From assembly GCF_019801145.1 (NCBI RefSeq), contig NZ_JAHVJQ010000004.1, positions 248,001-312,000 on the forward strand: a DNA stretch of 64,000 nucleotides. Direction: 5' to 3'. Under the pieces are notes generated by a model, which made no database searches, had not been told where the DNA came from, and saw only the letters and a list, made by a program, of their open reading frames with translations. A program made the position numbers and the translations under genes. Every line of letters begins with the position of its first letter. Position 1 is the first letter of the stretch. Shown piece by piece: positions 38,170-63,155 of the stretch. This DNA is from Leisingera aquaemixtae (GTDB lineage Bacteria; Pseudomonadota; Alphaproteobacteria; Rhodobacterales; Rhodobacteraceae).

Positions 38170-38928
38170 TCAGGACATCCTTTCATCATAAATCCAAGCT
38201 TCACCAGGGCCATCCAGCAAGCGTTTGGCCAGCGCACTGATGAAGGACCAGATAGCCTCGTCATGCACCAGATGGTGGGTCAGCAGCCCGTAGGGCTCAG
38301 CGTTGTCCGCCTCTCCCAGGCGGCGGTCGCGCAGCTGGCGCGCAACTTGTGCGATCAGCTGTTCCGGAGGCAGCAGGCTGCGGCCGCCCTTCCAGTCGAT
38401 CGGGTCCAGATGGGTGTTCACGCGCAGAAGGCCGGAGGCAGGCTTGGCCGCCTTGCGCGGGGCAAATGTGGAAACTGCAGTGAAGCCGGCACCGGCCAGC
38501 CAGGTCAGCATTTCCGGCGAGATCCGGTTCCAGGGCGGCACGAACATCGGCCGAAGGCTGCTGCCGAACAACTCCTTCAAAGCGGTCAGGCCATGTTCAG
38601 CGTCTTCCAGCAACTCTTCCAGCGGGCGGTGCGCACCGAACTCTGCCTTTTTTTCCCCTGCCGGGGCGTGGTTCTGATGCGCCCAGCCATGGACCACAGG
38701 GATCAACTGCGGATTGTCGGCGGCAAAACGGGCCAGATCAGCGGTGGCGCCCTGCGGGATCACGGCTAGGTGCACCGGCAGGTCAAGCTCCGCTGAGAGG
38801 TCTGCCAATCGCTCCAATTCGGCGGACTGGGACATCGCGTCGTCGTCCCGCCACCACAACGGCAGCGTCAGGTTTCCCTTCTGCCAATGGGCCAATTCCC
38901 TGTCCAGCGCGCTCCAGTCTGGTGTCAT
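38170..38928 (-). CDS. Polysaccharide deacetylase-like protein
   Basis: A 252-residue protein with the NodB-type layout. WWRDDDA (about residues 25-31) supplies the catalytic and metal-binding Asp, and HGWAHQNH (about 79-86) supplies the two metal-binding His. FVPPWNRIS resembles motif 3. These enzymes remove N-acetyl or O-acetyl groups from sugars. There is no signal peptide, so it should act in the cytoplasm on a precursor rather than on an exported polymer. Its start overlaps the preceding glycosyltransferase stop by 4 bases. Confidence 0.82.
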   Translation of the reverse strand: MTPDWSALDRELAHWQKGNLTLPLWWRDDDAMSQSAELERLADLSAELDLPVHLAVIPQGATADLARFAADNPQLIPVVHGWAHQNHAPAGEKKAEFGAHRPLEELLEDAEHGLTALKELFGSSLRPMFVPPWNRISPEMLTWLAGAGFTAVSTFAPRKAAKPASGLLRVNTHLDPIDWKGGRSLLPPEQLIAQVARQLRDRRLGEADNAEPYGLLTHHLVHDEAIWSFISALAKRLLDGPGEAWIYDERMS

Positions 38929-40061: not shown

Positions 40062-40645
40062 GAGGGACCCCTGCGGAGCAACCGGACCGGCTCCGCCCAT
40101 GGAGTTAGGTCTAGCCCGTCAACTTCGACGACAAACAGTCGGTTGCGCTTGATGCGGAAGGGAGCGGGGCCGTTGAAGCCCCAGCCAAAGGCGCGGGCCA
40201 GGATCATACGCATGATGCCGATATGGCAAACCGCCACTGCGTCCCGCTCCAAACTGGCCAGCCAGAGTTCAATGCGGGACCAGACCTCAGCAGGGGTCTC
40301 GCCGCCGGGCGGGCGGTAGTCCCATCCCCACTCTTCGATATCGCGGAAACCGCTGCCGGGGTCTGCTTTCAGGTCCAGCCCGTGCAGTCCTTCCCACGCG
40401 CCCCAGTTCATCTCGATGAGTTCGGGTGCCGCTCGCGGCGCGCGGTCAGCGACCAGTTCCGCAGTTTCCACCGCACGCATTAACGGACTGGACCAAAGTT
40501 CCGCCTGTTGCCAGTCCGCGGGCAGGAAGCAACCGCCAAGCTCCACCCGGGCCTGGTCGTCCAGGGGGATGTCGCTGCGGCCCTGGATGCGGCCGGCGCG
40601 GTTCCAAGCGGTATGCCCGTGGCGCAAAAGGGCTAGGCGGATCAT
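40058..40645 (-). CDS. Histidine phosphatase family protein
   Basis: A 195-residue protein of the phosphoglycerate mutase-like superfamily. LLRHGHTAWNRAGRIQG (about residues 6-22) carries the catalytic His. SSPLMRAVETAEL and VCHIGIMRMIL carry the conserved Arg and second His. The small size and lack of a signal peptide suggest a cytoplasmic small-molecule phosphatase. It is translationally coupled to glycosyltransferase genes on both sides, so it probably dephosphorylates a sugar-phosphate or glycan intermediate; that role is inference. Confidence 0.85.
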   Translation of the reverse strand: MIRLALLRHGHTAWNRAGRIQGRSDIPLDDQARVELGGCFLPADWQQAELWSSPLMRAVETAELVADRAPRAAPELIEMNWGAWEGLHGLDLKADPGSGFRDIEEWGWDYRPPGGETPAEVWSRIELWLASLERDAVAVCHIGIMRMILARAFGWGFNGPAPFRIKRNRLFVVEVDGLDLTPWAEPVRLLRRGPS

Positions 40646-41730
40646 GCGGATGGCTCCATCAGCGGCAAAACGGTTTCCCAGAACTGCCGGGCAGCGGCCG
40701 GGGCGAGGTGTTGGTTCGATATGAAGTCCCGGGCATCCCGGGCAGTTTTGGCGCGGAGCGATCGGTTTGCAAGCAGGCGACTGGCAAAGGATGCAAGCGC
40801 CTGTGCGCCATCTTCCGGTGCCGGGTACGGCCGGGGCAGCAGAACGTCCCGAACGCCGGGGCGGTCCTGAGCGGCAATCGGCAGGCCGTGGGCCTGTGCT
40901 TCCAGGTAGACCATGCCAAAGGCTTCATTCACGCCGGGCCACAGGAACAGGCTGGCTTTGGCATAGGCTGCAGCCAGTTCCTCGCGCGTCAGCTGGCCTA
41001 GGAAGCGGACCTTGTCACCGAATGGCGCCATCAGCGTCTCAACGTCGGCACGGGCCGGACCGTCTCCGGCGATTTCGAGGCGCCAATCGCCGGGCAGCAG
41101 GGCAAGCGTATCCGCGATGATGCTGTAAGACGTGAATTTGTCGCCCGCGCGCATCATGCCTGCGGTCAGCATCGGGCCGTCCAGGGTGGATGCGGCAGGC
41201 AAATCCTCAAGCGTGAGGAAGGGTGGCAGGTGGGCTATCTTCTGGTTGCCGAAGCGGTCACGCTGCAGCGCAAAGCGGTCATGCCGGGTGAAGTAAAATA
41301 TCGCAGACGCGTGGTCGGCGGCGGCGTGTGCCGCTTTTGCGAACTCTCCCCAAGGCCCAGCCAGCCGCTTCTTGGCGCGGGTGGATTCAATCTGCACATA
41401 GGGGATGCCCCGGGCCAAGGCCACGGCAGGGCCTATCAGATCCGGAGCTTTGTAGTAATTGTGGTAGGTGACCCAGAGGTCCGCGTCCGGCATCTGCGCG
41501 ATCAGCCGGGCGGCCTCTGCATCAGCCGCCTTGCGCAGTGCGGTTTGCAAGGCCGGGTCGCCGCGTTTGTCATAAATTCTGAGATCGGAAACCAGTTGCA
41601 CACCGGTCCCGCTCGTGCGGAGCAGGTCCATCAGGTTGCGGGCAATTTCGCGATCGCCGGAGGGCACCGGGTGATGCGGCGGCTTCATCGGCGCGTAGAA
41701 GGCAACCCGCATTCCGGCTCTCGGCTGCAT
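40642..41730 (-). CDS. GT4-type glycosyltransferase B
   Basis: A 362-residue GT-B glycosyltransferase. The N-terminal domain begins MRVAFYAPMKPPHHPVPSGDREIARNL. The C-terminal Rossmann domain contains EIAGDGPARADVE and the EAFGMVYLEAQAHGLP motif, the E-x7-E nucleotide-sugar signature of family GT4. ATG 41730 lies 5 bp after the preceding stop. An internal ATG at 41712 with GAGAG upstream is a possible alternative start. The acceptor is unknown. Confidence 0.82.
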   Translation of the reverse strand: MQPRAGMRVAFYAPMKPPHHPVPSGDREIARNLMDLLRTSGTGVQLVSDLRIYDKRGDPALQTALRKAADAEAARLIAQMPDADLWVTYHNYYKAPDLIGPAVALARGIPYVQIESTRAKKRLAGPWGEFAKAAHAAADHASAIFYFTRHDRFALQRDRFGNQKIAHLPPFLTLEDLPAASTLDGPMLTAGMMRAGDKFTSYSIIADTLALLPGDWRLEIAGDGPARADVETLMAPFGDKVRFLGQLTREELAAAYAKASLFLWPGVNEAFGMVYLEAQAHGLPIAAQDRPGVRDVLLPRPYPAPEDGAQALASFASRLLANRSLRAKTARDARDFISNQHLAPAAARQFWETVLPLMEPSA

Positions 41731-41735
41731 GGCCG

Positions 41736-42980
41736 TCAGCCGCCGTGCAGCATTGCGCTCAGCCGCTTCGAGAGCCGGGCAATGCCGGGATCCATGCCGA
41801 AATCCATGCGCAGACGGTCAAGCGCGGCCTCGGCCATTGCGGCCAGTTGCTGCGGCTGCCGGGCGGCGAAAAGCAGGGTTTCGGCCAGCGCTTCGGGGCT
41901 GTCCTCGCTCAGCAGGCCATGGGTGCCATGGGTTATGAATTCCGGAATAGCGGACACCGGGGTCGACAGGATGGGCAGGCGCTGCGAAGCAGCCTCCATT
42001 AGCACGTTGGGCAGCCCGTCGCGGTCGCCGTCCGCTGCCACCCGGCTGGGCAGCACAAACAGGTCAGAGGAGCGCATTTCCTCGATTACTTCCGGCTGGT
42101 CGCAGGCCCCTCGCCAGGTGATGCGGCGGGCAATGCCTGCATCTTCGGCCATGCCTTGCAGAAGGTCTCCCAGACCGCCGCCGCCGATATGGGTCCAATG
42201 CCAGTCAAGACCTGCAGGCAGCAGCGCGAGAGCAGCGATCAGCCGGTCAAAGCCTTTTTTCTCGACTAGGCGGCCAACCGACATGAAATGTATCGGATCC
42301 TGAGCGAGACGCTGCTGCCGCACAGGCGGGGCGGGGAAGCGGGACAGGTCGAGACCGTGGTAAACCAGATCGACCCGGTCTGGCGTGTCGGCCAGCTGTT
42401 GCAGGTGCTTTGCCCCGAACCCGGTGCAGGTGGCGCCGAAAGCCGCACCGTGATGAGCCGCGGAAAGCTTTTCCTGAAGTTCCCAGCCGGGTGAGGTCCA
42501 GATATCCTTGGCGTGCGCCGAAAAACTCCAGGGCAGGCCACGCATGATCGCGGCATATCGGGCCACCGAGGAGGGGGTATGTAGGAAATGCGCATAAAGC
42601 CCCAGCACCTCCGCGGGCATTTCGGCAGCCAAAACACAGGCCTGCCCGAAACGGCGGATGCGGTTAGGGGTCAGATCGCGGCGCAGATCGGCGCGCCAGA
42701 TGCGGTAGGCCTCGGCGTAGCCGGGAAGCTGCTGAGCCTGCGCGCGTGCACGCCAAACCCGCTCGGGTTCCTGATAAAGGTATTCGGGCAGGTAGTTTAC
42801 CTTGGCCTGCAGCCGCGCGTGCAAGGGGTGCCGTTTGACGTCTGTTGGGTGCCGCAATGACCAGATCTCAAAAGTGTGGCCAGCAGCCTCCAGCGCGACC
42901 AGTTCCTGGGCGATGAAAGTCTCGGACAGCCGGGGCCAGCCCTTTACAACAACTGCCAAAGGCGGACGGGCAGAGGTCAT
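41736..42980 (-). CDS. GT4-type glycosyltransferase C
   Basis: A 414-residue GT-B glycosyltransferase with KGWPRLSETFIAQEL (about residues 13-27), typical of exopolysaccharide GT4 enzymes. VGRLVEKKGFDRLI begins the C-terminal domain, followed by the PNVLMEAASQRLPILST nucleotide-sugar motif. The start is ATG 42980, which overlaps the stop of the upstream transferase (ATGA). The frame is open upstream to 43133, but that part overlaps the neighbour's coding sequence. Donor and acceptor are unknown. Confidence 0.83.
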   Translation of the reverse strand: MTSARPPLAVVVKGWPRLSETFIAQELVALEAAGHTFEIWSLRHPTDVKRHPLHARLQAKVNYLPEYLYQEPERVWRARAQAQQLPGYAEAYRIWRADLRRDLTPNRIRRFGQACVLAAEMPAEVLGLYAHFLHTPSSVARYAAIMRGLPWSFSAHAKDIWTSPGWELQEKLSAAHHGAAFGATCTGFGAKHLQQLADTPDRVDLVYHGLDLSRFPAPPVRQQRLAQDPIHFMSVGRLVEKKGFDRLIAALALLPAGLDWHWTHIGGGGLGDLLQGMAEDAGIARRITWRGACDQPEVIEEMRSSDLFVLPSRVAADGDRDGLPNVLMEAASQRLPILSTPVSAIPEFITHGTHGLLSEDSPEALAETLLFAARQPQQLAAMAEAALDRLRMDFGMDPGIARLSKRLSAMLHGG

Positions 42981-44203
42981 TCCGCGGCCTCTTTGCGCAC
43001 GTCCTGCAAAAGCGCCGCTACCCGGCGGGTAACGTAGTCGAGCCCATCGAGCAGCCCTTCGGAACCTGCCGCAGACGGCGGCTTCTGGGTTGCCAATGCA
43101 CGGATCGCCCTGGCCAGAGAAGGCGCAGTCCATCCGTCGCGGGTTTCATCCAGCATGGACGTGAGGCCGATCTCTTCGGCCCGGCTGGCCCGGATCCATT
43201 GCTCCAGCCTGGGGGTGGTGCGGGGCACGATCACTGCCGGTTTGTCAAAGGAAAGGACTTCGCAGAAAGTATTGTAGCCGCCCATGCAGACGACGCCCTG
43301 GGCGCCGGCAAACAGGGTCTCGATTTGCGATTCAAAACCAACGGCGGTGACACGGCCATCCAGCAGGGCAACGCGCTCTTCAAAGTCTTCACGGGTTTCG
43401 CCGGACAGAAATGGACCATAAACCAGCACTGCTCGGGGCGACAGGTCCGGATCCGCTTCATAGGCAGACAGCACCAGATCCACCATCATCTCGCCATCGC
43501 CGCCGCCGCCGGGGGTAACCAGCAGGTAGGGCTGCTCAGGCGGCTCGCCCACTTGGCCAAGGTCGCGGCGCAGATAGCCGGTCCAATGGATCCGGGCCTG
43601 CATCTCGGGCGTGAAGGGCAGCCCGGCGGTGGGGTCATAAACCGAGCGAGGCCCATAGACCCAGATTTCGTCATAGAAGTCGCGGGTGGCCTCGACCGCG
43701 TGTTTGCGCTCCCATTCTGCTGCCAGCACCTCCGGGTCATCCAGCACGTCGCGCAAGCCCAGCACTGTCTTGCATCGTCCACGCGACTTCAGAAGATCAA
43801 GCGCTGGCATCAGCTCGCCGCGAAAGCCGGTGGGTTCCTTGTCAGCGATGAGAACGTCAGGGTCATACTGCTCAACGGTTGAGCGGATCAGGGCCGCGCG
43901 CAGGTCTGCGGTTTCCTCTATGCTCATCCCCATCGTGCGCGAGGCATAGGAACCGTCCGACCGTTTGATAACGCCGGGCAGACGCACGTGGTCAACCCGG
44001 GACGGGAAGGAGAACCTGCCAGCCACGGGGGAGCCTGTTAGGATCAGCGCAGAAGCATCGGGATTGTCAGCCGTGATTGCCCCAGCCAGCGCCCGCGACC
44101 GGCGCAAGTGCCCCAGCCCGAAGGTGTCATGGCTGTAGAACATGATCCGGGGACCGCGTCTGGCGGTTTCCGCTGTGCGGTGGGTGATGCCTGTGTCCGT
44201 CAT
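42977..44203 (-). CDS. MurG/MGT-like glycosyltransferase D, first gene of the glycan cluster
   Basis: A 408-residue GT-B fold protein. SHDTFGLGHLRRSRALAGAI (about residues 24-43) is the acceptor-side glycine-rich loop. TPGGGGDGEMM (about 230-240) and VCMGGYNTFCEVLSFDKPAVIVPR form the donor-binding side. It is related to glycosyltransferase A of the same cluster (GHL and GGYNT blocks shared), so the operon carries two members of this subfamily. It leads six further genes with overlaps or gaps of at most 5 bp. No membrane segment is apparent. Confidence 0.8.
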   Translation of the reverse strand: MTDTGITHRTAETARRGPRIMFYSHDTFGLGHLRRSRALAGAITADNPDASALILTGSPVAGRFSFPSRVDHVRLPGVIKRSDGSYASRTMGMSIEETADLRAALIRSTVEQYDPDVLIADKEPTGFRGELMPALDLLKSRGRCKTVLGLRDVLDDPEVLAAEWERKHAVEATRDFYDEIWVYGPRSVYDPTAGLPFTPEMQARIHWTGYLRRDLGQVGEPPEQPYLLVTPGGGGDGEMMVDLVLSAYEADPDLSPRAVLVYGPFLSGETREDFEERVALLDGRVTAVGFESQIETLFAGAQGVVCMGGYNTFCEVLSFDKPAVIVPRTTPRLEQWIRASRAEEIGLTSMLDETRDGWTAPSLARAIRALATQKPPSAAGSEGLLDGLDYVTRRVAALLQDVRKEAAE

Positions 44204-47193: not shown

Positions 47194-48540
47194 TTAATCG
47201 GGCCACGCGGCAGCGGCGCTGCCGCAGCGGGTGGCAGGCAATTCCCAGTGCACTGCCGTGCCGTTCAGGGTGAGTGGCGCAGCAAGCCGGCGGCCAGGCC
47301 CCCAGCCGCTCGTCTCAAGGCGCGGTGACCAGTCGCTGTCTTCCGGCCCGGTGATGTCCGGGCCTTCAGAAGACTTGCCCATCCCGGCCAGCAATTCCGC
47401 CGTGCGTGCCAGCGAGAGGCGGGCCGTCGGAACTGCCTCCCCATGCGCCGCAGCAGCGAGTGCTGACAGCACTGCGGCGGCCATCAGATATCCGGTTGCA
47501 TGATCCAGCGCTTGTACCGGCAGTGGGTGCGGCCTGCCGGTCCCGGCCCAGTCCCGGCCTGCATCTGCAATGCCAGCACTCATCTGCACCAGGCTGTCGA
47601 ACCCGCGCCGTGTGGCCCAGGGGCCGGTCCAGCCATAGGCGTCCAGCGTCACCTCAACCGCGTTTGGCGCAAGCTGCCGCCGGGTGCCTGCGTCATACCC
47701 TAGCCCGTCCAGTGCGCCGGGCCGGTAGCCGTGTACCAGCACATCGGCCTGAGCAAGCAAGGTTTCGAATACCAGCCGGTCTTCCCCTTTGGCCAGGTTG
47801 AGCGCGGCCATGCGCTTGCCCAGCGAGATGTCTGTGATCACCCCCGGCTCATCCCAGCCGGGCGGGTCGATGCGCAGCACGTCGGCGCCAAAACCGGCCA
47901 GTGTGCGGGTGGAGACAGGCCCAGCCAGGACGCGGGTCAGATCAAGCACCCGCAACCCAGCCAGCGGACGCTCTGCCGTCGCTTCAGATCTTTCCCGCAG
48001 CCGCAGAGGCGCGGGCGCAATCCAGTGGATCAGCGGTTCTGATGCCACTGCACGGCCTTGAGGGTGCGCCAGCCAGTCCGCACGGCTGCGCATGGCGGCC
48101 GCCACTCCGCCAGCGGCTACGGTTTCGCTTTCCAGGCGGTCGGCCTGCCAGTGCTTTACTTCGGCAGCCACGGCCTCCCGCGTGGCGGCGCAACCGAGCA
48201 CTTGCAGTGCGGCCTGGCGGTGATGCGGAAGGTTGGTATGCAGGCGGATCCAGCCGTCCTGCGTTTCATAGACGCCAGCGATTTCATCCCACAGGCCGGG
48301 CAGCTCCCAGCCCTTCGGGCGGAAACTGTAGCCGAACCAGAGCGAGGCCAGCCGCTGATCCACGGTGACGTCAAGCGCGGCCGGCGAGAGGTTCAGGGCC
48401 TTGATCAGCCGTGCCAGCTCCAGACCAACTGCTCCTATGGAAGCATTGGCAAGTTCGGTGACAGCAAAGACGCTGCGCCATTGTCCGCTGCCGGTCAGGC
48501 GGAATTGATCCGCGGCGGGCAGGGATGTGAGAAGGGTCAT
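47194..48540 (-). CDS. CaiB/BaiF family CoA-transferase
   Basis: A 448-residue class III CoA-transferase, which exchanges CoA between carboxylic acids. LRVLDLTRVLAGPVSTRTLAGFGADVLRID (starting near residue 194) is the CoA-binding entry of the family. KRMAALNLAKGEDR and FDSLVQMSAG follow in the usual order. The N-terminal 190 residues form a divergent extra half-domain. Its start overlaps the stop of a peptide-transporter permease by 4 bases (ATGA), so the two are coupled. The acids it uses are unknown; the link suggests that the imported compound is activated to a CoA thioester. Confidence 0.85.
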   Translation of the reverse strand: MTLLTSLPAADQFRLTGSGQWRSVFAVTELANASIGAVGLELARLIKALNLSPAALDVTVDQRLASLWFGYSFRPKGWELPGLWDEIAGVYETQDGWIRLHTNLPHHRQAALQVLGCAATREAVAAEVKHWQADRLESETVAAGGVAAAMRSRADWLAHPQGRAVASEPLIHWIAPAPLRLRERSEATAERPLAGLRVLDLTRVLAGPVSTRTLAGFGADVLRIDPPGWDEPGVITDISLGKRMAALNLAKGEDRLVFETLLAQADVLVHGYRPGALDGLGYDAGTRRQLAPNAVEVTLDAYGWTGPWATRRGFDSLVQMSAGIADAGRDWAGTGRPHPLPVQALDHATGYLMAAAVLSALAAAAHGEAVPTARLSLARTAELLAGMGKSSEGPDITGPEDSDWSPRLETSGWGPGRRLAAPLTLNGTAVHWELPATRCGSAAAAWPD

Positions 48541-49691
48541 TGCTGATAGGGATCCAGACTGTCGCGCAGCCCGTCGCCAAGGAAGTTGAAGGCGAGCACG
48601 ACAATGACAATCGGCAGCATCGGAATGGCCAGCCAGGGATAGATTTCCACCGAGGTCAGGTTCTGCGCGTCATTCAGCATCACCCCCCAGCTGACCGCAG
48701 GTGCGCGCAGGCCGAGCCCGAGGAAGGACAGCGCGGTTTCCCCGAGGATCATTGCCGGGATTGACAACGTGGCTGAGGCAATCAGATGCGACATGAAGTT
48801 GGGCAAAAGATGTTTGCGGATCACCCGTCCGGACGTCGCGCCCATCATTTCTGCGGCCCGGACGTATTCTTCCTCCCGCAAGGACAGAAACTTGGCGCGG
48901 ACCGAGCGGGCAAGGCCGGGCCAGTCGAGAATGCCGAGAATGATCGAGATGATGAAGAAGACCGCAACCGGAGACCAGTTCGAGGGCACGGCAGCGGACA
49001 GGGCGAGCCACAGGGGTAGCTCGGGCAATGATCGCAGGATCTCGATCACGCGGTTCACCATCCAGTCGACCCGGCCGCCGAAATAGCCGGCGACACTGCC
49101 GAAGAAAATGCCAAGCACAAAGGAGACCGTGATGCCGATCAGGCCAACAGTCAGAGACAGCTGTGCACCGTAGGAAACGCGGCTGAAGATGTCGCGGCCC
49201 AGACGGTCGGAGCCCAAGATGAAGATCGTGGCTTCCTCGCTGGCGCAGAACAGGTGCCGGTTGCTTTCGATGAAACCCGCGAGGTTGTAGGTGCTGCCTT
49301 CACAGAAAAACTTGAGCTTGAGCGGGCGCGAGGTGTCCGGTTTGAACTCCCACTGGAAGGTCTCCAGGTTGGCTTCGGAGGTCATCGGGTAGACGAAGGG
49401 GCCGACAAACTCGCCTTCATGAAACAGCTTGACCGACTGGGGCGGCGAGTAGAGATGCTCGGAAAACCGCTGGTTGGGCCCGTAGGGGGCAATGAAACCG
49501 GCAAACGGGATCAGGCCGTAGGCAATCAGCAGGAAGATACCTGAGATAAGGCCCAGTCTGTGGGTCTTGAACTTGCGCCAGACCAGCAGCCAATTCGGGG
49601 CGTCGAGGTCCTTGCGCTCCAGTTCCAGCAGCGAGGCCTGCGGATCAAATGGTTCATCGTCGACATAACGTCCGTCGGGCAGATGGGTCAT
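48537..49691 (-). CDS. Peptide-type ABC transporter permease (DppC/YejE-like)
   Basis: A 384-residue inner-membrane permease. A first helix (about residues 47-70) is followed by a periplasmic loop of about 100 residues and then by five helices. The EAA motif, EYVRAAEMMGATSGRVIRKHLLPN, contacts the ATPase. LGSDRLGRDIFSRVSYG precedes the second helix, as in DppC/OppC proteins. The long loop resembles YejE. It overlaps the dppB-like gene by 4 bases upstream and the CoA-transferase gene by 4 bases downstream. Confidence 0.9.
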   Translation of the reverse strand: MTHLPDGRYVDDEPFDPQASLLELERKDLDAPNWLLVWRKFKTHRLGLISGIFLLIAYGLIPFAGFIAPYGPNQRFSEHLYSPPQSVKLFHEGEFVGPFVYPMTSEANLETFQWEFKPDTSRPLKLKFFCEGSTYNLAGFIESNRHLFCASEEATIFILGSDRLGRDIFSRVSYGAQLSLTVGLIGITVSFVLGIFFGSVAGYFGGRVDWMVNRVIEILRSLPELPLWLALSAAVPSNWSPVAVFFIISIILGILDWPGLARSVRAKFLSLREEEYVRAAEMMGATSGRVIRKHLLPNFMSHLIASATLSIPAMILGETALSFLGLGLRAPAVSWGVMLNDAQNLTSVEIYPWLAIPMLPIVIVVLAFNFLGDGLRDSLDPYQQ

Positions 49692-50716
49692 GCGTCACGC
49701 CCCTCGTAGCGGATTCTGGGGTCAAGCAGCACCAGCAGCACATCCGAAATCATGGTGCCGATCAGGGTAAGAAGGGCAACGAACATCAATACAAAACCTG
49801 ACAGGAACATGTCCTGTGTCTTGAGCGCTGTCAGCAGGGTCGGGCCGATGGTTTGCAGGCCCAGGACCACCGACACAAGGACAGAGCCGGAAATCATCGA
49901 GGGCAGCAGGTTGCCGATATCTGCAACAAAGGGGTTGAAGGCCACCCGTAGCGGGTACTTTGCCAGCATGCGGGACGGCGCCATGCCCTTGGCGATGGCG
50001 GTTTCCACATAGGGTTTGCCCAGTTCATCCAGCATGTTGGCCCGCAGCCGCTGCATCATCGCCGAGGCGCCGGCAGTACCAATCACGAAGGTTGGAACAA
50101 TGAGGTGCACCAGGATGGATTTCACCTTGTCCCAATTCATCGGCACACCTTCGAATTCAGGCGCCATCAGCCCCCCGATCGGCAGGTCAAACCACCGGTG
50201 GCCGTAGTAGAACAGGATCAGCGCCAGCAGGAAGTTCGGTGTGGCAAGTCCCAGGTAGCCGACAAAAGCGGTGGTGTAGTCGACCCAGGTGCGCGCGCGG
50301 GCTGCCGCCAGAACGCCCAAAGGCAGGGCGACGGCATAGACAAAGATCACGGCGGCCAGGTTCACGAGCACCGTCAGCCACAGGCTGTCGCCGACAATAT
50401 CGGCCACCGGGCTGTCAAACTCGAATGACCAGCCGAAATTGCCCTGGATCATGCCGGAAAACCCGTGCGGCCCCGGCATGAAACCCATCCAGATCATGTA
50501 TTGCTGCCAAAGCGGCTTATCGAGCGCGTATTCCTTGCGCAGAAATTCCGCCTTGGCCACGCCTGCGGACTGTCCGGTTGCCTGCAGTTCGGCAATCTGG
50601 TTCGACAGGTAGTCGCCGGGCGGCAGGTTGATGATGACGAAAATCAGCACCGACACCACCAGCAGTGTCATCAGCATGGTGCCAAAGCGGTAGATGGCGT
50701 ATCGCAGAATCTCCAT
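49688..50716 (-). CDS. Peptide-type ABC transporter permease (DppB/YejB-like)
   Basis: A 342-residue inner-membrane permease with about six helices. RFGTMLMTLLVVSVLIFVI is the first, and RANMLDELGKPYVETAIAKGMAPSRMLAKYPLRVAFNP contains the EAA loop. EYALDKPLWQQYMIWM in the periplasmic loop is typical of DppB/YejB. Its ATG at 50716 shares one base with the stop of the binding-protein gene. It forms the channel with the DppC-like permease. Confidence 0.9.
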   Translation of the reverse strand: MEILRYAIYRFGTMLMTLLVVSVLIFVIINLPPGDYLSNQIAELQATGQSAGVAKAEFLRKEYALDKPLWQQYMIWMGFMPGPHGFSGMIQGNFGWSFEFDSPVADIVGDSLWLTVLVNLAAVIFVYAVALPLGVLAAARARTWVDYTTAFVGYLGLATPNFLLALILFYYGHRWFDLPIGGLMAPEFEGVPMNWDKVKSILVHLIVPTFVIGTAGASAMMQRLRANMLDELGKPYVETAIAKGMAPSRMLAKYPLRVAFNPFVADIGNLLPSMISGSVLVSVVLGLQTIGPTLLTALKTQDMFLSGFVLMFVALLTLIGTMISDVLLVLLDPRIRYEGRDA

Positions 50717-52629
50717 CAGTCCAGGCCATCCTCAAAGAAGAATTCATCCGGCCGGTAAACGCCGAAATGCGCGCCGGGGTCCCAGGCCCAGATCGCCTGT
50801 TCCGGCACGTTGCGCAGCCGGGTGCTGACGACAACAGGCTGCGGCGCGGCGGCCACAACGCCAATCGCATAGACCTGTTCGGCATGGATCTGCAGCATGG
50901 CGCGCCAGGCTGCGATGCGCTCGGCCTTTGTCGTGGCCATGTCCCAGTCCTGCAGAAGCGTAAGCAGCTGCTGAGCGGGTGCCATATCCGGCGGTTCGCC
51001 TGCATTGCCGCCGGTCTGATAGAACTGGCCCCATTTCGGCCAGGACAGAAAGACTTGGTCGGTAGGGGCCAGGTAAACCGGAGATGTATAAGACTGAGGC
51101 AAGCCATTGTCCCAGCCAAACCAGGCCGACGCCATGGTGCTGCCGGAAAAGACCCGGTTTCTCAGGATGTCGCGGTCCAGCGGGCGCATGATCAGCTTGA
51201 CGCCGACATCGCGCCAGTCATCGGAGATGATCTGCAGGGCGTTTTCCACTTCCTGCCGTTCGCCTGCGGTTTCCACAATCAGTTCCATCAGACGTCCATC
51301 CGGAAGGTAGCGGATGCCGTAGCCGTCCTTTTCCGTCAGCCCGGCCTCGTCCAGCAGGCGGTTTGCCTGTTCGGGGTCAAACTGCGCCCAGGCGTCGCGC
51401 AGGGCTGGATCAAACAGCTCGCTTTGTTCCAGCACCGTCATGGCGCCGGGTTTTGCAAGGTTGAAATAGAGCGCCCGGTTGATGGCGCGGCGGTTGATAG
51501 CCAGCGACAAGGCACGCCGCACCCGCACATCGCGCAGGATCTCCCGCCACACCGGATCCTGGGTATTCAGGTTCGGGTAAATGGCAATTTGCGATGCAGC
51601 GCCATTGCCCCAAAGGTAAGTCTTGTAGCCCGAGTTGTCTTTTTCGCCCTTGCGCAGTATCGGAATGTCGCGGAAATCCAGCCCGCGGGCCTGCAGATCC
51701 GCTTCCCCTGCATTCGACTTTGCGGCGACCAGCCCGGCGGTCACGATTTCCATCTCAACTGTGTCAATATAAGGCAGCTGAACGCCGCGGCTGTCGATCC
51801 GGTGGTAATAGGGGTTGCGCACGAACTGATGGCGGATCTTCTTGCCAGGCGAGGCATTGATCCAGGGCTGCAGCGTCGGAAGCTCGTGGTTATCGAACTT
51901 GTACATGTTGTCGTACTTGTTGTGCAGCGCGGCCCAGCTTTTGACGCGGGCGTAATCGACCTCTTCTTCCAAAACCTCGGGGTCGGCGTAATCAGCGTGA
52001 AACTGCTTCAGGTATTTGGCGGGCCGGTAGATGAAGGGCGGGCGGGCCTGGGCCAGCATGTGAAGGAAACTGGGGTTCGGGTCGTCCCATTCATAAATCA
52101 CCGTGGTTTCGTCCGGGAAGCTGACCCGCGGCAGCTTTCCCATCACCCGCAGAAAATCCGGCGGGCCGGCCGGGCTCAGCAGTTCGTTGTTGGCAACATC
52201 GTTCCACCAGTACCGGAAATCGTCAGAGGTGAACGGATCGCCGTTGGACCATTTGTGCCCGGGACGCAGCTTCAGCGTGTAGCGGCGGTTCGCCTCGTTT
52301 TCGTACCCCAGAAGAATGTCAGGCCTTAGCTGATACTTCTCATCGTAACCTGCCAGACGCGCGTATCCATAGACCACCATCTGCCGGATGTCCTTGGAGC
52401 GCGTGACCATGGTATTGAGTGTTCCGCCCTGAAGGCCGAACTCCCGGCCCTTGGCGGCCAGATCAACCACCAGCGGTACTTCAGGAAGGCGTTTGGCGGC
52501 AGGCGGCAAGTAGCCCGCCTTGACCTCGGACTTCCAGAAACTGCTTTCCTGCACCGTTATTTCTGCAATGGCAGGCAAAGGGGCAAGACAGAGGGCGGCT
52601 GCGAGTATGGATTTCAGGGCATCAAGCAT
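50716..52629 (-). CDS. Peptide-type ABC transporter substrate-binding protein (SBP family 5)
   Basis: A 637-residue periplasmic binding protein. The signal peptide ([22 protein letters not shown]) is followed by the SBP_bac_5 fold, with LKLRPGHKWSNGDPFTSDDFRYWW (about residues 114-137) and VRRALSLAINRRAIN (about 372-386) as family marks. The length is close to YejA and longer than DppA. It overlaps the ATPase gene by 8 bases. The ligand could be a peptide or another amphipathic compound, and cannot be told from sequence. Confidence 0.9.
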   Translation of the reverse strand: MLDALKSILAAALCLAPLPAIAEITVQESSFWKSEVKAGYLPPAAKRLPEVPLVVDLAAKGREFGLQGGTLNTMVTRSKDIRQMVVYGYARLAGYDEKYQLRPDILLGYENEANRRYTLKLRPGHKWSNGDPFTSDDFRYWWNDVANNELLSPAGPPDFLRVMGKLPRVSFPDETTVIYEWDDPNPSFLHMLAQARPPFIYRPAKYLKQFHADYADPEVLEEEVDYARVKSWAALHNKYDNMYKFDNHELPTLQPWINASPGKKIRHQFVRNPYYHRIDSRGVQLPYIDTVEMEIVTAGLVAAKSNAGEADLQARGLDFRDIPILRKGEKDNSGYKTYLWGNGAASQIAIYPNLNTQDPVWREILRDVRVRRALSLAINRRAINRALYFNLAKPGAMTVLEQSELFDPALRDAWAQFDPEQANRLLDEAGLTEKDGYGIRYLPDGRLMELIVETAGERQEVENALQIISDDWRDVGVKLIMRPLDRDILRNRVFSGSTMASAWFGWDNGLPQSYTSPVYLAPTDQVFLSWPKWGQFYQTGGNAGEPPDMAPAQQLLTLLQDWDMATTKAERIAAWRAMLQIHAEQVYAIGVVAAAPQPVVVSTRLRNVPEQAIWAWDPGAHFGVYRPDEFFFEDGLD

Positions 52630-54403
52630 GGCAGCGCACCTTGTGGCCGGGTTCCAGGTGTTTCAAATTCACCAGGGGCGGGGCATCGACGCCATTGAAC
52701 CGGAACGCCTCGGGCCAGCGCTCGGGCGCGCCTGCGCCCTGGGCCACCAGTTTCAGGTCGATGGGGCGGTCGATGTCAGGTTCCGGCTGGGCGGCAATCA
52801 GCGCCTTGGTGTAAGGATGCTGGGGATTATAGAACAATGTTTCCGGCGGCGCCTGCTCGACGATCAGGCCGCGCCGCATCACCGCAACTTCATCGGCGAT
52901 CCGGGCCACCACGGCAAGGTCATGGCTAATGAACAGGTAGGACAGGTTGTGCTGGTCGCGGATGTCCTCCAGCAGCCGCAGGATCTGTTCCTGTACCGAG
53001 ACATCCAGCGCAGAGGTCGGTTCGTCGCAGACAATCAGCGCCGGGTCCAGCATCAGGGCGCGCGCAATTGACAGGCGCTGCCGCTGGCCGCCGGAAAAAG
53101 CGTGCGGGTAACGCTTCAGCATATCAGGCGACAAGCCCACCAGACGCAACATTTCCGCGGCCTTGTCGCGGCGCTCCGCGCGGGTGCCGATGCGATGGAT
53201 ATCCAGCGGCTCCATCAGCGTGTCCTGAATGCGCATTCGCGGCGACAGCGAAGAGTACGGGTCCTGAAACACCATCTGGGCCTGCCGCTGAAAGGCTGTA
53301 CGCGTTTCCCTATCCATATCGTGGACTGTAACCGGGGGCTGGCTGGCCTCGGGCCGGAACAGCACCTCGCCGCCGGGGTCGGGCGGCTCTGCCCCCAGCG
53401 CGATGCGGGCCGCGGTGGTCTTGCCCGAACCGCTTTCGCCGACAATTGCCAGTGTCTCCCCGCGGGTCACCCGCAGGTCGATCTCGCGGCAGGCGTGGAT
53501 CAGCGTGGGAGCCTGCCAGCCCTTGCCGGCCCGCAGTGTGTAAGTCTTGGAGACAGATTTCATCTCCATGATCAGGTCTTCGCGCGAAGGCGGAATCGCG
53601 ACCACTGCCTCATCCGGGATTTCCGGTGCGGCGTCGAACAGCGCCTTGGTATAAGGATGCGCAGGCGCGCGCAGCATCGGTTCGGCGCGCCCTGACTCCA
53701 TAACCCGGCCCTTGTGCATCACCACCACCTGCTCGGCCATGTTGGCCACCACGCCCAGATCATGGGTCACCAGGATCATTGCCATCCCGGTTTCCCGCTG
53801 CAGGTCTTTCATCAGCCCCAGCACCTGCGCCTGGGTGGTCACGTCAAGCGCTGTGGTCGGCTCGTCGGCAATCAGCAGGTCCGGCTTGGCCACCATCGCC
53901 ATGGCGATCATCGCCCGCTGGCGCATTCCGCCGGACAATTCAAACGGGTAGGAGCGGTAGGTGCGCTCCGGTTCTGGAAATCCAACCCGCTCAAAACACT
54001 CCAGAACCACATCGCGCGCCTCGCGTTCGGATTTGCGTCCATGCAGCCACAGAACCTCGGACACCTGGTTGCCGATCCGGTGCAGCGGCGAAAGCGAGCG
54101 CATCGGCTCCTGGAAAATCATCGAGATGGTGTTGCCGCGCACATCCCGCATCAAGCGTTCGTCCAGCGATGCCAAGTCCAGCTTCTTGCCGCGGGTCTCC
54201 AGCAGGATGCGACCGGACCGCAATTGAGCCACTTTTGGCAGAATGCGCAGAACTGCCCGGCAGGAAACCGTCTTGCCCGAGCCGCTTTCCCCGACCAGGG
54301 CAAGCGTTTCCCCCGGTTGGACGGCAAAGCTCACGTCCTTGACGACAGAGTCTCCTTTGCCAAACCCGATGCTGAGGTTTTCGACGGACAGCAGCGGACG
54401 CAT
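52622..54403 (-). CDS. Fused two-domain ABC ATPase (DppDF/YejF-like)
   Basis: A 593-residue protein with two complete ABC ATPase domains. In the first, Walker A is [10 protein letters not shown] (about residues 35-44) and the signature is [15 protein letters not shown]. In the second, Walker A is [10 protein letters not shown] (about 317-326), the signature is [15 protein letters not shown] and Walker B is [14 protein letters not shown]. Both look catalytically intact. C-terminal oligopeptide-type extensions follow each domain. It is the first gene of the transporter operon, divergent from a TetR regulator. The single-gene fusion favours a Yej-like system. Confidence 0.93.
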
Positions 54404-59571: not shown

Positions 59572-59964
59572 TTAGGCAGCTGCGTATTTTACCCAGGCCC
59601 AGGCCATGGCTATGTAGGTCAGCTGGTGCAGCGCCTGGTCCGAGCCCATCGCCTGCCAGAACATTGCCTGCTGCGGATTCAGCTTTTTGCGTTCTGAAAA
59701 CCTGGCTTTACCGAAATCAATGTGGAAATGCACAATCCATTCCAGCACGGCCAGCACCAGGATGAATGTCAATGATGCCCCGAACAGAAGGAAAATAAGA
59801 GCGGAGCCGGCAATATGCACGCCGGCGTGCTGCGCCCGGCCCATATGCGCATAGGCGCAGCGGCCCGACAGCATCTTCGGGGTCTGAAGGAAGAAGTCGG
59901 CAAACAAATGCTTGACCTGCAAAGCGCAGAGCAGCAGCAGAACGGATCCGACGTATTCCGGCAA
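59572..59964 (-). CDS. DUF3307 membrane protein
   Basis: A 130-residue membrane protein with about four helices and the histidine/aspartate pattern of DUF3307: KHLFADFFLQTP near residue 20, QHAGVHIAGSALIF, HFHIDFGKARFS, and SDQALHQLTY near the C terminus. The function of the family is unknown. I propose a TTG start at 59964, because AGGAG lies 10 bases upstream and the family begins here. The frame is open further, but no better start is seen. It stands between the AsnC gene and the pseudo-ABC gene. Confidence 0.75.
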   Translation of the reverse strand: MPEYVGSVLLLLCALQVKHLFADFFLQTPKMLSGRCAYAHMGRAQHAGVHIAGSALIFLLFGASLTFILVLAVLEWIVHFHIDFGKARFSERKKLNPQQAMFWQAMGSDQALHQLTYIAMAWAWVKYAAA

Positions 59965-60135
59965 ACCAATAAGTCTCCTGAAAGTATAGTTGGCTGGAAC
60001 CTTACGGATTTTTTGCCGTCTGGCAAATGCTGTGACGGCAGAGTGCCGCAACGGGACAGGGCGGGTTACTGCCCATTGCCTGCAGCAGCTAAACCGCGCT
60101 ACCCATAGGGTATCTTGTCCGTAGCTGCCATTTAT

Positions 60136-60149
60136 GGAGCATTCCCATA
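60136..60149 (+). promoter_or_regulatory. Ribosome-binding site and probable AUA start codon
   Basis: GGAG (60136-60139) is followed by 7 bases and then ATA (60147-60149). The frame from the TAA stop at 60090-60092 to GTG 60201 contains no ATG, GTG or TTG. The codons after the ATA encode ERSLFRFIWKYSKRDQLV, which looks like the natural N-terminal elbow and first helix of an ABC exporter. This suggests initiation at AUA. A CTG at 60159 or an upstream ATT at 60141 are less well spaced. Confidence 0.5.
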
Positions 60150-63100
60150 GAACGCTCTCTGTTCCGTTTCATCTGGAAATACTCGAAACGCGATCAGCTG
60201 GTGCTGCTGGTTGTCACTGCTTGCCTGTTCCCGCTGCTGTATCTGACGCTGGAGCTGCCCAAGCGGATTATCAACGATGCGATTGGTGCCGAGAGCTCGA
60301 CGATTACGGTGCTGGGGCAGAGTTTTGACCAGCTGACGTTCCTGTGGATCCTTTGCGGGGCTTTCCTTCTGTCGGTGCTGTGCCACGGTCTGCTGAAGAT
60401 GCGGATCAACACCATGAAGGGTGTGCTGGCGGAGCGGATGCTGCGCCGGTTCCGCTACCAGCTGATCGCCCGCGTCCTGCGCTTCCCGCAGCCCTATTTC
60501 GAGCGGGTCAGCCAGGGTGAGCTGGTGTCGATGGTCACTTCGGAATCCGAACCGATGGGCGGGCTGATGGGCGACGCGGTCAGCCAGCCGGTGCTGCAGG
60601 CCGGGCAGATGCTGACCATCCTGTTCTTTCTGTTTCTGCAGAACTTCTGGTTCGGGATGGCGGCGATTGCCCTGATTCCGCTGCAGGGCTGGCTTATCCC
60701 GATGCTGCAACGGCAGATCAACCAGCTGAACAAGAAACGTATTAAGCAGGTGCGGGCGCTGGCGACAGAAATCGGGGAAAGCGCCGCCGGCGCTTCGACG
60801 CTGCGGATCAATGGCGGCTGGCGTTACCGGATGGCGATCATCACCGCCCGGCTGGGGCGGCTTTATGAAATCCGCTTCCTGATCTACCAGAAAAAGTTTT
60901 TCATGAAGTTTCTCAATAACTTCATCACCCAGCTGACTCCTTTCTTCTTTTATGCAGTCGGCGGGTATCTGGTGCTGCAGGGCAAGGTCTCGCTGGGCGC
61001 TCTGGTGGCAGCCCTGGCCGCTTACAAGGATCTGGCATCGCCCTGGAAGGAGCTGCTGGCATATTACAACCAGACCCAGGACATGAGCCTGCGCTGGGAT
61101 GTGATCCTGGAGCGCTTTGCGCCGCAGGGGATGGTGGATGAAGAGCTGCTAAGCGGTGAACCGGAGGAGCTGCAGCATCTCTCCGGCGATGTGGTGCTTG
61201 ATTCCGTCACTGTGCGGGACTCCGACGGCAATCTGGTGCTCGAGGAATTGAGCGCAACCTTTCCGGCCGGGCAGGTGGTCGGGATCGCAGCGCCATCCGA
61301 AGAAGACCGCAGGGCGCTGGCGGAGCTCCTGACGCGGGAAATCCTGCCGTCCTCGGGGACTGTGACCGTGGCAGAGCAGGACATGAGCGGGCTGCATCAG
61401 GCAGTAGTGGCAGCGCGGATTGGCTATGCCACGTCGCGGCCGGTGCTGTTTCAGGGGTCCTTTGGCGACAACGTGATGATGCCGATGCGGATGCGCCCGC
61501 AGGGAGATGCGCGGGATCCGGAACAGCTGGAGGTCGCCATTCAGGCGGGCAACAGCCCGGACCCGTTTGATGCGCCGTGGCTGGACCCCAAGCTGGCCGG
61601 GTTTTCCAGCGAGGCTGAATTGCGCGGCTGGTGGCTGAAAGTGGTGGAGGGGATCGGCTCTGACACTGCGCTGTTCCGGCGCGGTATCGAGCAGCGGTTC
61701 GAGGAGGCCGCGCATCAGGAACTGGCGGAGAAACTGGTGAGGCTGCGTCCAACGGTACGCGAGGCGATCGAAAATGCCGGGCTGGATGTGCATGTGCATT
61801 TCCTGGAGCACGGGAGCTACAACCCGGCCCTCCCAGTTGCCGAGAACCTTTTGTTTGCGGCCTCTCAGGAGGCCCTGACCGGCGAGATGCTGAACGAGCA
61901 AAGGGATTTCCTTGACCAGCTGAAGCAACTTGGCCTTGACGAAAGCCTAGTTGCGCTGACCCGTGATGTGGTTGAAATGCTGCGGCAGATCTTTGGCATG
62001 GATGGAACCGGCCACCCGCTTTTCCGTAAGCTTGGCCTGGACGTTGCGGCCTACGAGGCTGCGCTGGCGCTGGTGGACCGCTCCGGCACCGCTGATGCGG
62101 CGGCGCTGAGCCGGGAAGAACTGGCGCAGCTGCTGATCGTGCCCTTCACCATCTCCGCAGAGCAAATTGGGCCCGCATTTGAGGATGACATGAAGGAGCG
62201 CATTCTCGGCTTCCGGCGCAGCCATGGGGACGCGCTTTTGAAGACGCTGGGCACAGGTTTTGCGCCTTTCCAGGAAGACGCAATTACCCCCAGCCTCACG
62301 GTTCTGGAAAACGCTCTCTTCGGCAAGATATCCGATGCCGCAGGTGCCAAGGGTGATGAGGTGCGCAAACTGGTCTCCGACCTCATGGTGCGCGAAGGCT
62401 TGCGCGACCAGGTGGTGGAACTGATTTTCGACATGCCGATTGCAGTGGGCGGGCAGGGGCTGGCAGCCAGTTTCGCGGAACCGCTGGCCTTCTGCCGCGC
62501 CACGATCAAGCGTCCGGATATCCTGATCCTGGATTCCGCGATGGCGAGCTATGACCTGGAAACCCGCGTTGCGGTGCACAAGAACCTGCGCAAGCTGCTG
62601 CCCGACACGACGCTGATCTATCTGGCGCCCGGATTTCAGAACCCGGACGTATTTGATGTGTTCTTTGAATTGCGCCAGGGCCGGCTGGTCAGCGATGAGG
62701 CGCAGGCCGTGTCCGCGGAAGAAGGTGCAGCCAGCCAGGATCTGGCCCGCAAGCTGCGGGCGCTGGAGCAGACCGAGCTGTTTTCCGGTCTCAACCGGCG
62801 CCAGCTGCGCCTCCTGGCTTTCGGCGCGCGCTGGTACGAGGCCAAGGCGGGCGAGGTGGTTTTCCTCAAGGACGACGAGGCCACGGACGGCGCCTACATG
62901 ATTTTGTCGGGCGAGGCAGATCTTCTGTTGCCGCAAGAAGGGGCGGAGGACCGGTTGATTGCCCAGGTCGGCCCAGGCCGGCTAGTCGGAGAACTGGGGC
63001 TTATCCGGCAGGAGCCGCGCGCGCTCAGCATGGTTGCAGCAAGCGATCTGCGATGCCTGCGGATCGGCGAGGAAGAGTTCCTGGCGGTTGTGGAGAACGA

Positions 63101-63155
63101 CGCGTCGACCGCTTTCAAGCTGCTGCAGGTGGTGGCAGGCTACGTTTCCAACTGA
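60147..63155 (+). CDS. ABC-exporter-like protein with degenerate ATPase and C-terminal cyclic-nucleotide-binding domain
   Basis: A 1002-residue protein from the proposed AUA start (984 from GTG 60201). Residues 15-310 are an ABC exporter membrane domain (six helices, with FPQPYFERVSQGELVSMVTSE and a GYLVLQGKVSLGALVA region). The nucleotide-binding domain is degenerate. The Walker A position reads GIAAPSEEDRRA (about 379-390), with no lysine. The signature position is GGQGLAAS (about 768). Walker B is ILILDSAMASYD, with S797 in place of the catalytic Glu. The H-loop His is absent (IYLAPGF). About 290 extra residues separate Walker A from the signature. A cyclic-nucleotide-binding domain follows (about 878-1000) with an intact phosphate-cassette pattern GELGLIRQEPRA (E949, R958). 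It is probably a regulated, non-classical membrane protein; the function is unknown. Confidence 0.8.
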   Translation: MERSLFRFIWKYSKRDQLVLLVVTACLFPLLYLTLELPKRIINDAIGAESSTITVLGQSFDQLTFLWILCGAFLLSVLCHGLLKMRINTMKGVLAERMLRRFRYQLIARVLRFPQPYFERVSQGELVSMVTSESEPMGGLMGDAVSQPVLQAGQMLTILFFLFLQNFWFGMAAIALIPLQGWLIPMLQRQINQLNKKRIKQVRALATEIGESAAGASTLRINGGWRYRMAIITARLGRLYEIRFLIYQKKFFMKFLNNFITQLTPFFFYAVGGYLVLQGKVSLGALVAALAAYKDLASPWKELLAYYNQTQDMSLRWDVILERFAPQGMVDEELLSGEPEELQHLSGDVVLDSVTVRDSDGNLVLEELSATFPAGQVVGIAAPSEEDRRALAELLTREILPSSGTVTVAEQDMSGLHQAVVAARIGYATSRPVLFQGSFGDNVMMPMRMRPQGDARDPEQLEVAIQAGNSPDPFDAPWLDPKLAGFSSEAELRGWWLKVVEGIGSDTALFRRGIEQRFEEAAHQELAEKLVRLRPTVREAIENAGLDVHVHFLEHGSYNPALPVAENLLFAASQEALTGEMLNEQRDFLDQLKQLGLDESLVALTRDVVEMLRQIFGMDGTGHPLFRKLGLDVAAYEAALALVDRSGTADAAALSREELAQLLIVPFTISAEQIGPAFEDDMKERILGFRRSHGDALLKTLGTGFAPFQEDAITPSLTVLENALFGKISDAAGAKGDEVRKLVSDLMVREGLRDQVVELIFDMPIAVGGQGLAASFAEPLAFCRATIKRPDILILDSAMASYDLETRVAVHKNLRKLLPDTTLIYLAPGFQNPDVFDVFFELRQGRLVSDEAQAVSAEEGAASQDLARKLRALEQTELFSGLNRRQLRLLAFGARWYEAKAGEVVFLKDDEATDGAYMILSGEADLLLPQEGAEDRLIAQVGPGRLVGELGLIRQEPRALSMVAASDLRCLRIGEEEFLAVVENDASTAFKLLQVVAGYVSN

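Follow-up and report, generated by a model that had tools for sequence, protein, structure and literature searches.

The window analysed here, a stretch of 64,000 nucleotides from Leisingera aquaemixtae, encodes a 1002-residue protein in which an ABC exporter-type membrane domain is joined to a degenerate ATPase domain, split by a long conserved insertion, and to a C-terminal cyclic-nucleotide-binding (cNMP) domain (Table 1). Judged from sequence, the chances are about even that this pseudo-ABC protein hardly hydrolyses ATP and that, under the control of a cyclic nucleotide, it acts in the inner membrane as a gate or scaffold on behalf of a conserved glycan operon, serving either its product or its enzymes. 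Two points appear to be new: the co-occurrence with a glycan glycosyltransferase, and a probable ATA, ATC or ATT initiation codon throughout one clade. No paper on the protein family was found among the matches listed in the open-licence literature, and annotated plasmid records carried generic names only (ABC-transporter, cNMP, Crp/Fnr; 40 of 343 records).

Table 1. Features of the pseudo-ABC gene and of linked genes (positions in the window)
Feature	Position	Strand	Remarks
Methyltransf_17 (PF12692) methyltransferase, linked glycan operon	37690..38169	-	
Protein with weak sub-cut-off DUF2334 match	38170..38928	-	
GT28-like glycosyltransferase	38925..40100	-	Pfam on L044 relative and homology to window
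Histidine phosphatase	40058..40645	-	Pfam on L044 relative and homology
GT4 glycosyltransferase	40642..41730	-	Pfam on L044 relative and homology
GT4 glycosyltransferase	41736..43133	-	Relative resembles EpsE below NCBIfam cut-off
GT28-like glycosyltransferase	42977..44203	-	Gene of co-occurrence test
Peptide-type ABC importer	48537..54403	-	Two permeases, SBP_bac_5, double ATPase
DUF3307 protein, divergent neighbour	59572..60051	-	Homologue in flanks of 56/60 roseobacter loci
Shine-Dalgarno-like site, GGAG	60136..60139	+	7 nt before ATA
Pseudo-ABC exporter/cNMP fusion	60147..63155	+	1002 aa, codon 1 ATA
Initiation codon ATA (inferred)	60147..60149	+	
Exporter-type membrane domain (TMD), residues 1-330	60147..61136	+	Best-conserved part
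Degenerate NBD, N-terminal half, residues 331-460	61137..61526	+	
APSEEDRRAL in Walker A position, residues 382-391	61290..61319	+	
Conserved insertion, residues 461-735	61527..62351	+	
Internal repeat copy 1, residues 520-572	61704..61862	+	Ends ENLLFAA; hhalign probability 98.5, E 1.8e-15
Internal repeat copy 2, residues 676-727	62172..62327	+	Ends ENALFGK; same hhalign comparison
Degenerate NBD, C-terminal half, residues 736-860	62352..62726	+	LAASF signature, ILILDS Walker B, ASYD D-loop
cNMP domain, residues 861-1002	62727..63152	+	Cassette VGELGLIRQEPRAL

Domain structure and the degenerate ATPase

The limits of the reading frame given in the earlier note, including the start at 60147, were correct. 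The Pfam match of the window protein to ABC_membrane (residues 40-290, E 3e-17) bears out its description of the membrane half as an ABC exporter domain, and together with a Foldseek match to TmrAB it indicates the transmembrane fold of type IV (MsbA-like) exporters; residues 1-330 contain only four 19-residue windows of hydropathy above 1.3, so that this measure does not by itself bear out six membrane helices. The cNMP_binding family matched residues 899-985 (E 1e-15), and a search against ABC ATPase models, which the earlier note had proposed, gave an ABC_tran match limited to residues 365-456, at 25.8 bits against a cut-off of 25. No peptidase was among the three Pfam families found (E up to 1). 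The AlphaFold2 model (pLDDT 81.7, pTM 0.67; pLDDT below 50 at residues 134-150 and 296-315) retrieved almost exclusively ABC exporters among the 50 Foldseek matches listed, such as TmrAB (TMt 0.57).

In the ATPase domain, the Walker A lysine and the following Ser/Thr are replaced by R388 and R389, the Q-loop Gln by S430, the Walker B Glu by S797 and the H-loop His by P828. The earlier assertion that every ATP-hydrolysis motif is altered thus stands for the Walker A Lys, the Walker B Glu and the H-loop His, but the Walker B Asp (D796) and the D-loop Asp (D803) are retained, the former being the only one of six scored catalytic residues still present. The GGQ previously read as the ATPase signature was misassigned, and is excluded by the alignment, in which it lies before LAASF at the true signature position. 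The window protein accordingly has no ATPase site that could be called competent (Walker A GxxxxGK[ST], Q, signature, DE and H), and LAASF and P828 would leave both composite sites of a homodimer incomplete.

The Walker A position, which the earlier note had suggested checking in orthologues, holds Arg in all 105 close relatives and Lys in none, Ser occupies the Q-loop position in 91 of them, and the replacement motif APSEEDRRAL is itself conserved. Across 245 family members the full set of six canonical residues was never found, and a canonical Walker A occurred in eight. The sole member to retain five of the six, L291, is distant (33% identity); among distant members the Walker A Lys is present in 78/140, Glu or Asp in the next position in 111/140 and the Walker B Glu in 72/140, and one of them, L025, scores 60 bits with ABC_tran compared with 26 for the window protein. 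The loss of catalytic residues is therefore well founded for the close relatives but not for the whole family. Since the degeneration is graded, the loss looks derived, and the family probably descends from an ATP-binding exporter. While ATP binding or hydrolysis may persist in some relatives, as L291 and the seven others with a canonical Walker A suggest, in the clade of the window protein hydrolysis would hardly be possible any more.

The insertion between the ATPase halves, put at about 290 residues in the earlier note, is real and spans about 275 (residues 461-735). It was present, at 251-298 residues, in 245/245 members, which were selected by a profile spanning both NBD halves. A model of the insertion with adjoining helical parts (residues 436-800, pTM 0.82) gave no Foldseek match at E 0.001, the best (E 0.18) being unrelated.

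The phosphate cassette of the cNMP domain, described earlier as intact-looking, indeed carries Arg in all 104 ungapped (fused) members among 152 aligned, together with Glu in 85 of them and Asp in the other 19; we take the Glu and Arg to have their usual roles in the phosphate-binding cassette. The same genome holds 23 class III cyclase matches, and a separate cNMP frame lies downstream in 36 of 43 chosen non-roseobacter neighbourhoods (42 genomes). Cyclic AMP or cGMP is a putative ligand, although the similar domain of HetC binds ppGpp.

The protein was full length in 21/21 sampled genomes of the genus, and dN/dS was 0.031 in the TMD versus 0.037-0.102 in the other domains, a sign of purifying selection. 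Positions at least 95% conserved over 152 members numbered 70/330 in the TMD, many of its near-invariant residues being charged, but 6/130 and 4/125 in the N- and C-terminal NBD halves and 11/275 in the insertion; ABC proteins usually show the opposite, according to the part of PMC10986499 consulted. In wider samples the protein was found in 132 of 385 alphaproteobacterial genomes, roughly one third (E 1e-60; some matches partial), and 30 of 31 matches in a phylum sample fell within its own class, the remaining one (G526) being TMD-only.

A probable conserved non-canonical start codon

In this reading frame the first ATG, GTG or TTG comes only at 60201, although distant members have their start codon at the position homologous to codon 1. 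Codon 1 is ATA, ATC or ATT in 81/84 orthologues of one clade (node support 0.567), versus 0/18 in a sister paralogue clade, and GGAG, GAGG or AGGA occurs at -16..-5 in 43 of these 81 non-ATG orthologues against 2-5/81 in five control windows. A canonical downstream start was rejected: the first candidate is scattered over codons 5-37, and codons 2-18 show a dN/dS of 0.009 over 180/210 pairs from 21 genomes. A canonical upstream start was likewise rejected, as 47 of the 81 have no in-frame candidate before a stop and in the other 34 the positions vary by lineage, some being shared by close relatives (L013, L016, L017). Translation in marine roseobacters thus appears to start at codon 1.

The infC gene, a rare well-characterised case of non-canonical initiation in the part of PMC5472188 consulted, also starts with ATA in the genus (21/21 genomes), and the same source describes Streptomyces sigR, with its GTC start, as IF3-repressed. 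Like sigR and infC, the pseudo-ABC orthologues combine a conserved non-canonical codon, as in IF3-discriminated genes, with a Shine-Dalgarno sequence; unlike sigR they use ATA, ATC or ATT, and their IF3-sensitive translation is a prediction.

Genetic linkage to a glycan operon

A glycan operon lies at 37.7-44.2 kb of the window, 15.9 kb from the pseudo-ABC gene, so that the idea of its loss from this lineage was wrong. The product of 38170..38928 may be deacetylase-like. The intervening importer is presumably yej, and a homologue of its ATPase was found in 27/43 non-roseobacter neighbourhoods.

Among the 385 genomes, 125 had both the pseudo-ABC gene and the GT28-like gene, seven the former alone, two the latter alone and 251 neither (Fisher p 8e-90, uncorrected for phylogeny); the co-occurrence may be partly due to shared ancestry. 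In G337, G415, G204, G190 and G167 both genes are kept on one contig at distances of 0.18-1.3 Mb (circularity ignored). The four glycosyltransferases occurred in 31, 32, 31 and 32 of the 43 chosen non-roseobacter neighbourhoods (42 genomes), nearly always upstream and on the other strand, and in none of six roseobacter loci examined together with 6 kb on either side. This tight tie suggests that the protein regulates a glycan or lets one pass, and not that it signals on its own. The earlier proposal of a signalling or gating protein is still inferential, and what the evidence adds to it is this tie to glycan biosynthesis.

Possible functions and relation to known systems

If the protein is a gate or scaffold, it would form a homodimer in which ligand binding to the cNMP domain moves the pseudo-NBD and insertion, and this movement would determine which state the membrane domain adopts or dock the glycosyltransferases. 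An AUA or AUC as codon 1 is proposed to hold expression in roseobacters at a low level and to couple it to IF3. A bolder form, in which a ligand switch replaces the ATP engine, the cyclic nucleotide acting through the duplicated helical insertion to drive or gate a glycan channel, with an IF3-tied AUA/AUC start, is tentative, and we would lean against it.

Rather unlikely is a transporter of the SbmA/BacA kind, in which an ion gradient moves the substrate and the pseudo-NBD and cNMP domain merely gate. It would suit the strong conservation and near-invariant charges of the TMD, a TMD-only paralogue of 420 aa in the same genome and TMD-only matches in other genomes of the genus (among the matches listed), and SbmA offers a precedent of a related fold run on a proton gradient, according to the part of PMC13316013 consulted. 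However, the window protein has no SbmA/BacA-family Pfam match, a distant member giving a sub-cut-off ABC_membrane_2 match, and the insertion is kept in every member selected over both halves. An inactive half of a heterodimeric exporter, powered by the ATPase of a partner, is a poor prospect: heterodimeric exporters with one degenerate site are known, which favours it, as do the resemblance to TmrAB and other half-exporter-like frames in the genome, but no second TMD-bearing match to the family profile appeared in 46 neighbourhoods scanned (a distant partner is possible), and with both the Walker and signature sides altered no complete composite site would form. Improbable as well is a nucleotide sensor whose degenerate site would still bind ATP, or some other nucleotide, and signal the energy state without any hydrolysis; the Walker residues kept by many distant members are consistent with it, but not the Arg and Ser fixed or prevalent in the window's own clade.

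Decay of an ordinary transporter, or a pseudogene, is very improbable and largely refuted. Motifs are lost, and broken copies exist in Sinorhizobium meliloti ml59 (two open pieces) and the MAG L103 (split), but the intact frames in all genomes of the genus that were sampled and their dN/dS of 0.03-0.10 show that this copy is no frameshift or chance reading frame, and the conserved APSEEDRRAL also counts against decay; with Walker A Lys in no close relative, the suspicion of decay voiced in the earlier note is unsupported. The gate or scaffold remains the preferred reading.

MsbA/TmrAB-type (type IV) exporters share the membrane domain and overall fold, but the pseudo-ABC protein lacks a complete Walker A, Q-loop, signature, catalytic Glu and H-loop and adds the insertion of about 275 residues and the cNMP domain. 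Nostoc HetC likewise combines an ABC exporter and a cNMP-type ligand domain in one chain; in the part of PMC10986499 consulted it is a peptidase-containing exporter with an essential ATPase, whose domain binds ppGpp and not cAMP. That domain is N-terminal in HetC and C-terminal here, and where HetC has a C39 peptidase and an ATPase, the pseudo-ABC protein gives no peptidase match, has lost ATPase residues and contains a large insertion with a duplication. Like SbmA/BacA (SLiPT) proteins it would have an exporter-type membrane domain that works without hydrolysing ATP, but it retains an NBD remnant and is not an SbmA_BacA-type membrane domain without NBD. To our knowledge, SLiPTs have no NBD.

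Annotation restricted to ATG, GTG and TTG misplaces starts of this kind, as in Ruegeria sp. TM1040, where the annotated start of the protein lies 17 codons after codon 1. The clade-wide AUA/AUC start would add to the known cases and make IF3 control of another gene testable. If the proposed function is true, nature would here provide an example of an exporter fold that operates without ATP hydrolysis, and cyclic nucleotides would be tied to a glycan, as c-di-GMP acts on other polysaccharides.

A degenerate exporter-like family

The pseudo-ABC protein joins an exporter membrane domain (TMD) to a split, degenerate nucleotide-binding domain (halves NBD-N and NBD-C) and a cyclic-nucleotide-binding (cNMP) domain. 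Its NBD-C half aligned weakly with BmrA, and gave a stronger profile match to Ste6/P-glycoprotein-type chains. The whole protein was modelled by AlphaFold2 with a pLDDT of 81.7 and a pTM of 0.67, and a Foldseek search with this model returned ABC exporters. Read position by position, the protein lacks the Walker A Lys, the Walker B Glu and the H-loop His, as an earlier note had claimed, but the GGQ taken there for an ATPase motif sits N-terminal to the true signature.

Features of the window and of the pseudo-ABC protein
Feature	Position	Strand	Remarks
Glycan operon	37690-44203	-	same gene set as non-roseobacter neighbourhoods; adjoins MscS-like channel and peptide-type ABC importer
GT28-like gene	42977-44203	-	gene used for co-occurrence
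MscS-like mechanosensitive channel	44598-46985		795 aa; divergent to first glycosyltransferase gene
DUF3307 protein	59572-60051		divergent to pseudo-ABC gene
pseudo-ABC	60147-63155	+	open frame, 1002 residues
ABC_membrane	residues 40-290		Pfam match
ABC_tran	residues 365-456		Pfam match, N-terminal part only, barely above cut-off
cNMP_binding	residues 899-985		Pfam match
Walker A			APSEEDRRAL; K to R388, S/T to R389
Q-loop			S430
Signature			LAASF
Walker B			ILILDS; D796 kept, E to S797
D-loop			ASYD; D803 kept
H-loop			P828

At E 1e-60, a profile search placed the family in 132 of the 385 genomes sampled from the class, some matches being fragments or TMD-only. Of 398 genomes sampled across the phylum, 31 gave a match; 30 of them belong to this class, and the remaining match is TMD-only. 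From the fetched loci, which over-weight roseobacters, 281 frames were selected for their profile score and for covering the two NBD halves; removing 36 duplicates or sub-sequences left 245 non-identical members. None retained all six scored catalytic residues: 47 kept none, 94 one, 55 two, 35 three, 13 four, and L291 alone five. The earlier claim that every ATP-hydrolysis motif is altered needs correction, as D796 and D803 are kept in the window protein; nor is the family uniformly dead, because eight of the 245 members have a canonical GxxxxGK[ST] and L291 keeps five residues. The Walker A Lys was Arg in all 105 close-clade members (49% identity or more) and was retained in 78 of 140 distant ones. 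The Mg-binding Ser/Thr that follows it was substituted by E or D in 111 of these 140, and the Walker B Asp by N or S in 101. To us this suggests descent from an ATP-binding ancestor, with catalytic residues lost repeatedly.

The long unexplained stretch of about 290 residues, also noted earlier, is real, and separates the NBD halves in every one of the 245 members (251-298 residues). It contains a duplication, in which residues 520-572 match residues 676-727 (hhalign probability 98.5, E 1.8e-15), and the second copy ends in a part that lines up with the residues following the Q-loop of real exporters; a third stretch may be similar too, at a probability of 70 (60 when only distant members are used). 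Residues 436-800 were predicted by AlphaFold2 with a pLDDT of 85.7 and a pTM of 0.82, and Foldseek found no solved structures like them at E 0.001.

A ruined gene was largely ruled out, as the frame is full length and stop-free, at 86-100% identity, in all 21 sampled genomes of the genus (its own included), and mean pairwise dN/dS across these orthologues was low in each domain: TMD 0.031, NBD-N 0.102, insertion 0.085, NBD-C 0.037 and cNMP 0.044 (197-210 usable pairs out of 210). On pSymB of Sinorhizobium meliloti ml59 (L262), the gene is unannotated and broken into two open pieces, adjoining a cNMP protein annotated as Crp/Fnr; at a distance of 12 kb there is an adenylate/guanylate cyclase gene. 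The window's own genome also carries a TMD-only paralogue of 420 aa (L042:2851-4113, contig C5), which has no NBD and matches Pfam ABC_membrane below the cut-off. It is flanked on one side by a cytochrome c gene and on the other by genes for a CusF/cupredoxin protein and a multicopper oxidase; among the matches listed, TMD-only ones occur in at least 16 of 21 genus genomes.

A probable non-canonical start codon

Codon 1 (60147-60149 in the window) was ATA in 48, ATC in 32, ATT in one and ATG in three of 84 orthologues (non-ATG clade, loci L001-L022 and L079-L142), which form a single clade (node support 0.567; two sub-clades 0.991 and 1.0) and include many close relatives, so that they are not 84 independent cases. 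It was ATG in 18/18 of the sister paralogue clade and in L023, outside both clades, while 49 distant members had ATG, GTG or TTG (44), CTC (three) or no aligned residue (two). A second, ATG-starting paralogue (51-54% identity) was seen in Ruegeria, Tropicibacter, Tateyamaria and others (L143-L158). Strict Shine-Dalgarno words occurred at -16 to -5 in 43 of the 81 non-ATG orthologues versus 2-5 in control windows, and a looser set in 63 versus 8-21. Variation in codons 2-18 was almost confined to third positions, a bias absent further upstream of codon 1. In Ruegeria sp. TM1040 the protein is annotated to begin at L263:8052, 17 codons after the position homologous to codon 1.

Thirty infC loci were taken, of which seven were unparsed; in 21/21 from the genus (L224, L233-L245, L247-L249, L251-L254), and likewise in genomes G022 and G039, ATA stands at the expected start with no canonical in-frame start. 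IF3 is reported to repress the non-canonical starts of infC and Streptomyces sigR (PMC5472188). That ATG is so scarce at codon 1, although a single transition from ATA, suggests that a weak start may be under selection.

Gene neighbourhood and possible function

Forty-three non-roseobacter neighbourhoods from different families were picked by hand (42 genomes; flanks of about 8 kb on either side, contig ends permitting). In these, two GT28-like genes (31 and 32 neighbourhoods), two GT4 genes (32 and 31), a histidine phosphatase (28) and a gene that we take to be deacetylase-like (28) lay near pseudo-ABC, nearly always upstream on the opposite strand; a Methyltransf_17 enzyme was present in 20. 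A stand-alone cNMP protein followed pseudo-ABC in 36, so that most non-roseobacter lineages sampled encode the sensor in a neighbouring gene of its own, and the window protein carries it fused. Glycosyltransferases were found within 6 kb in none of six roseobacter loci tested, and a DUF3307 homologue flanked 56 of 60 roseobacter loci. The GT28-like gene and pseudo-ABC were either both present or both absent in 376 of 385 genomes, a count that takes no account of phylogeny and includes genomes with both genes far apart. In the window, the MscS-like channel occupies the spot held by the pseudo-ABC gene in many relatives.

There is perhaps an even chance that pseudo-ABC is a ligand-controlled, non-hydrolytic gate or scaffold that would work together with the glycan operon. 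This is favoured because a homodimer could have no complete composite ATPase site, because the membrane part is the most constrained, and because the cNMP ligand cassette appears intact, as had been claimed, in a genome with 23 class III cyclase matches. A gradient-driven transporter is unlikely. The protein could also be the inactive half of a heterodimer, but both of its faces are altered, so that neither composite site would be complete, and we consider this improbable; a nucleotide sensor is about equally improbable.
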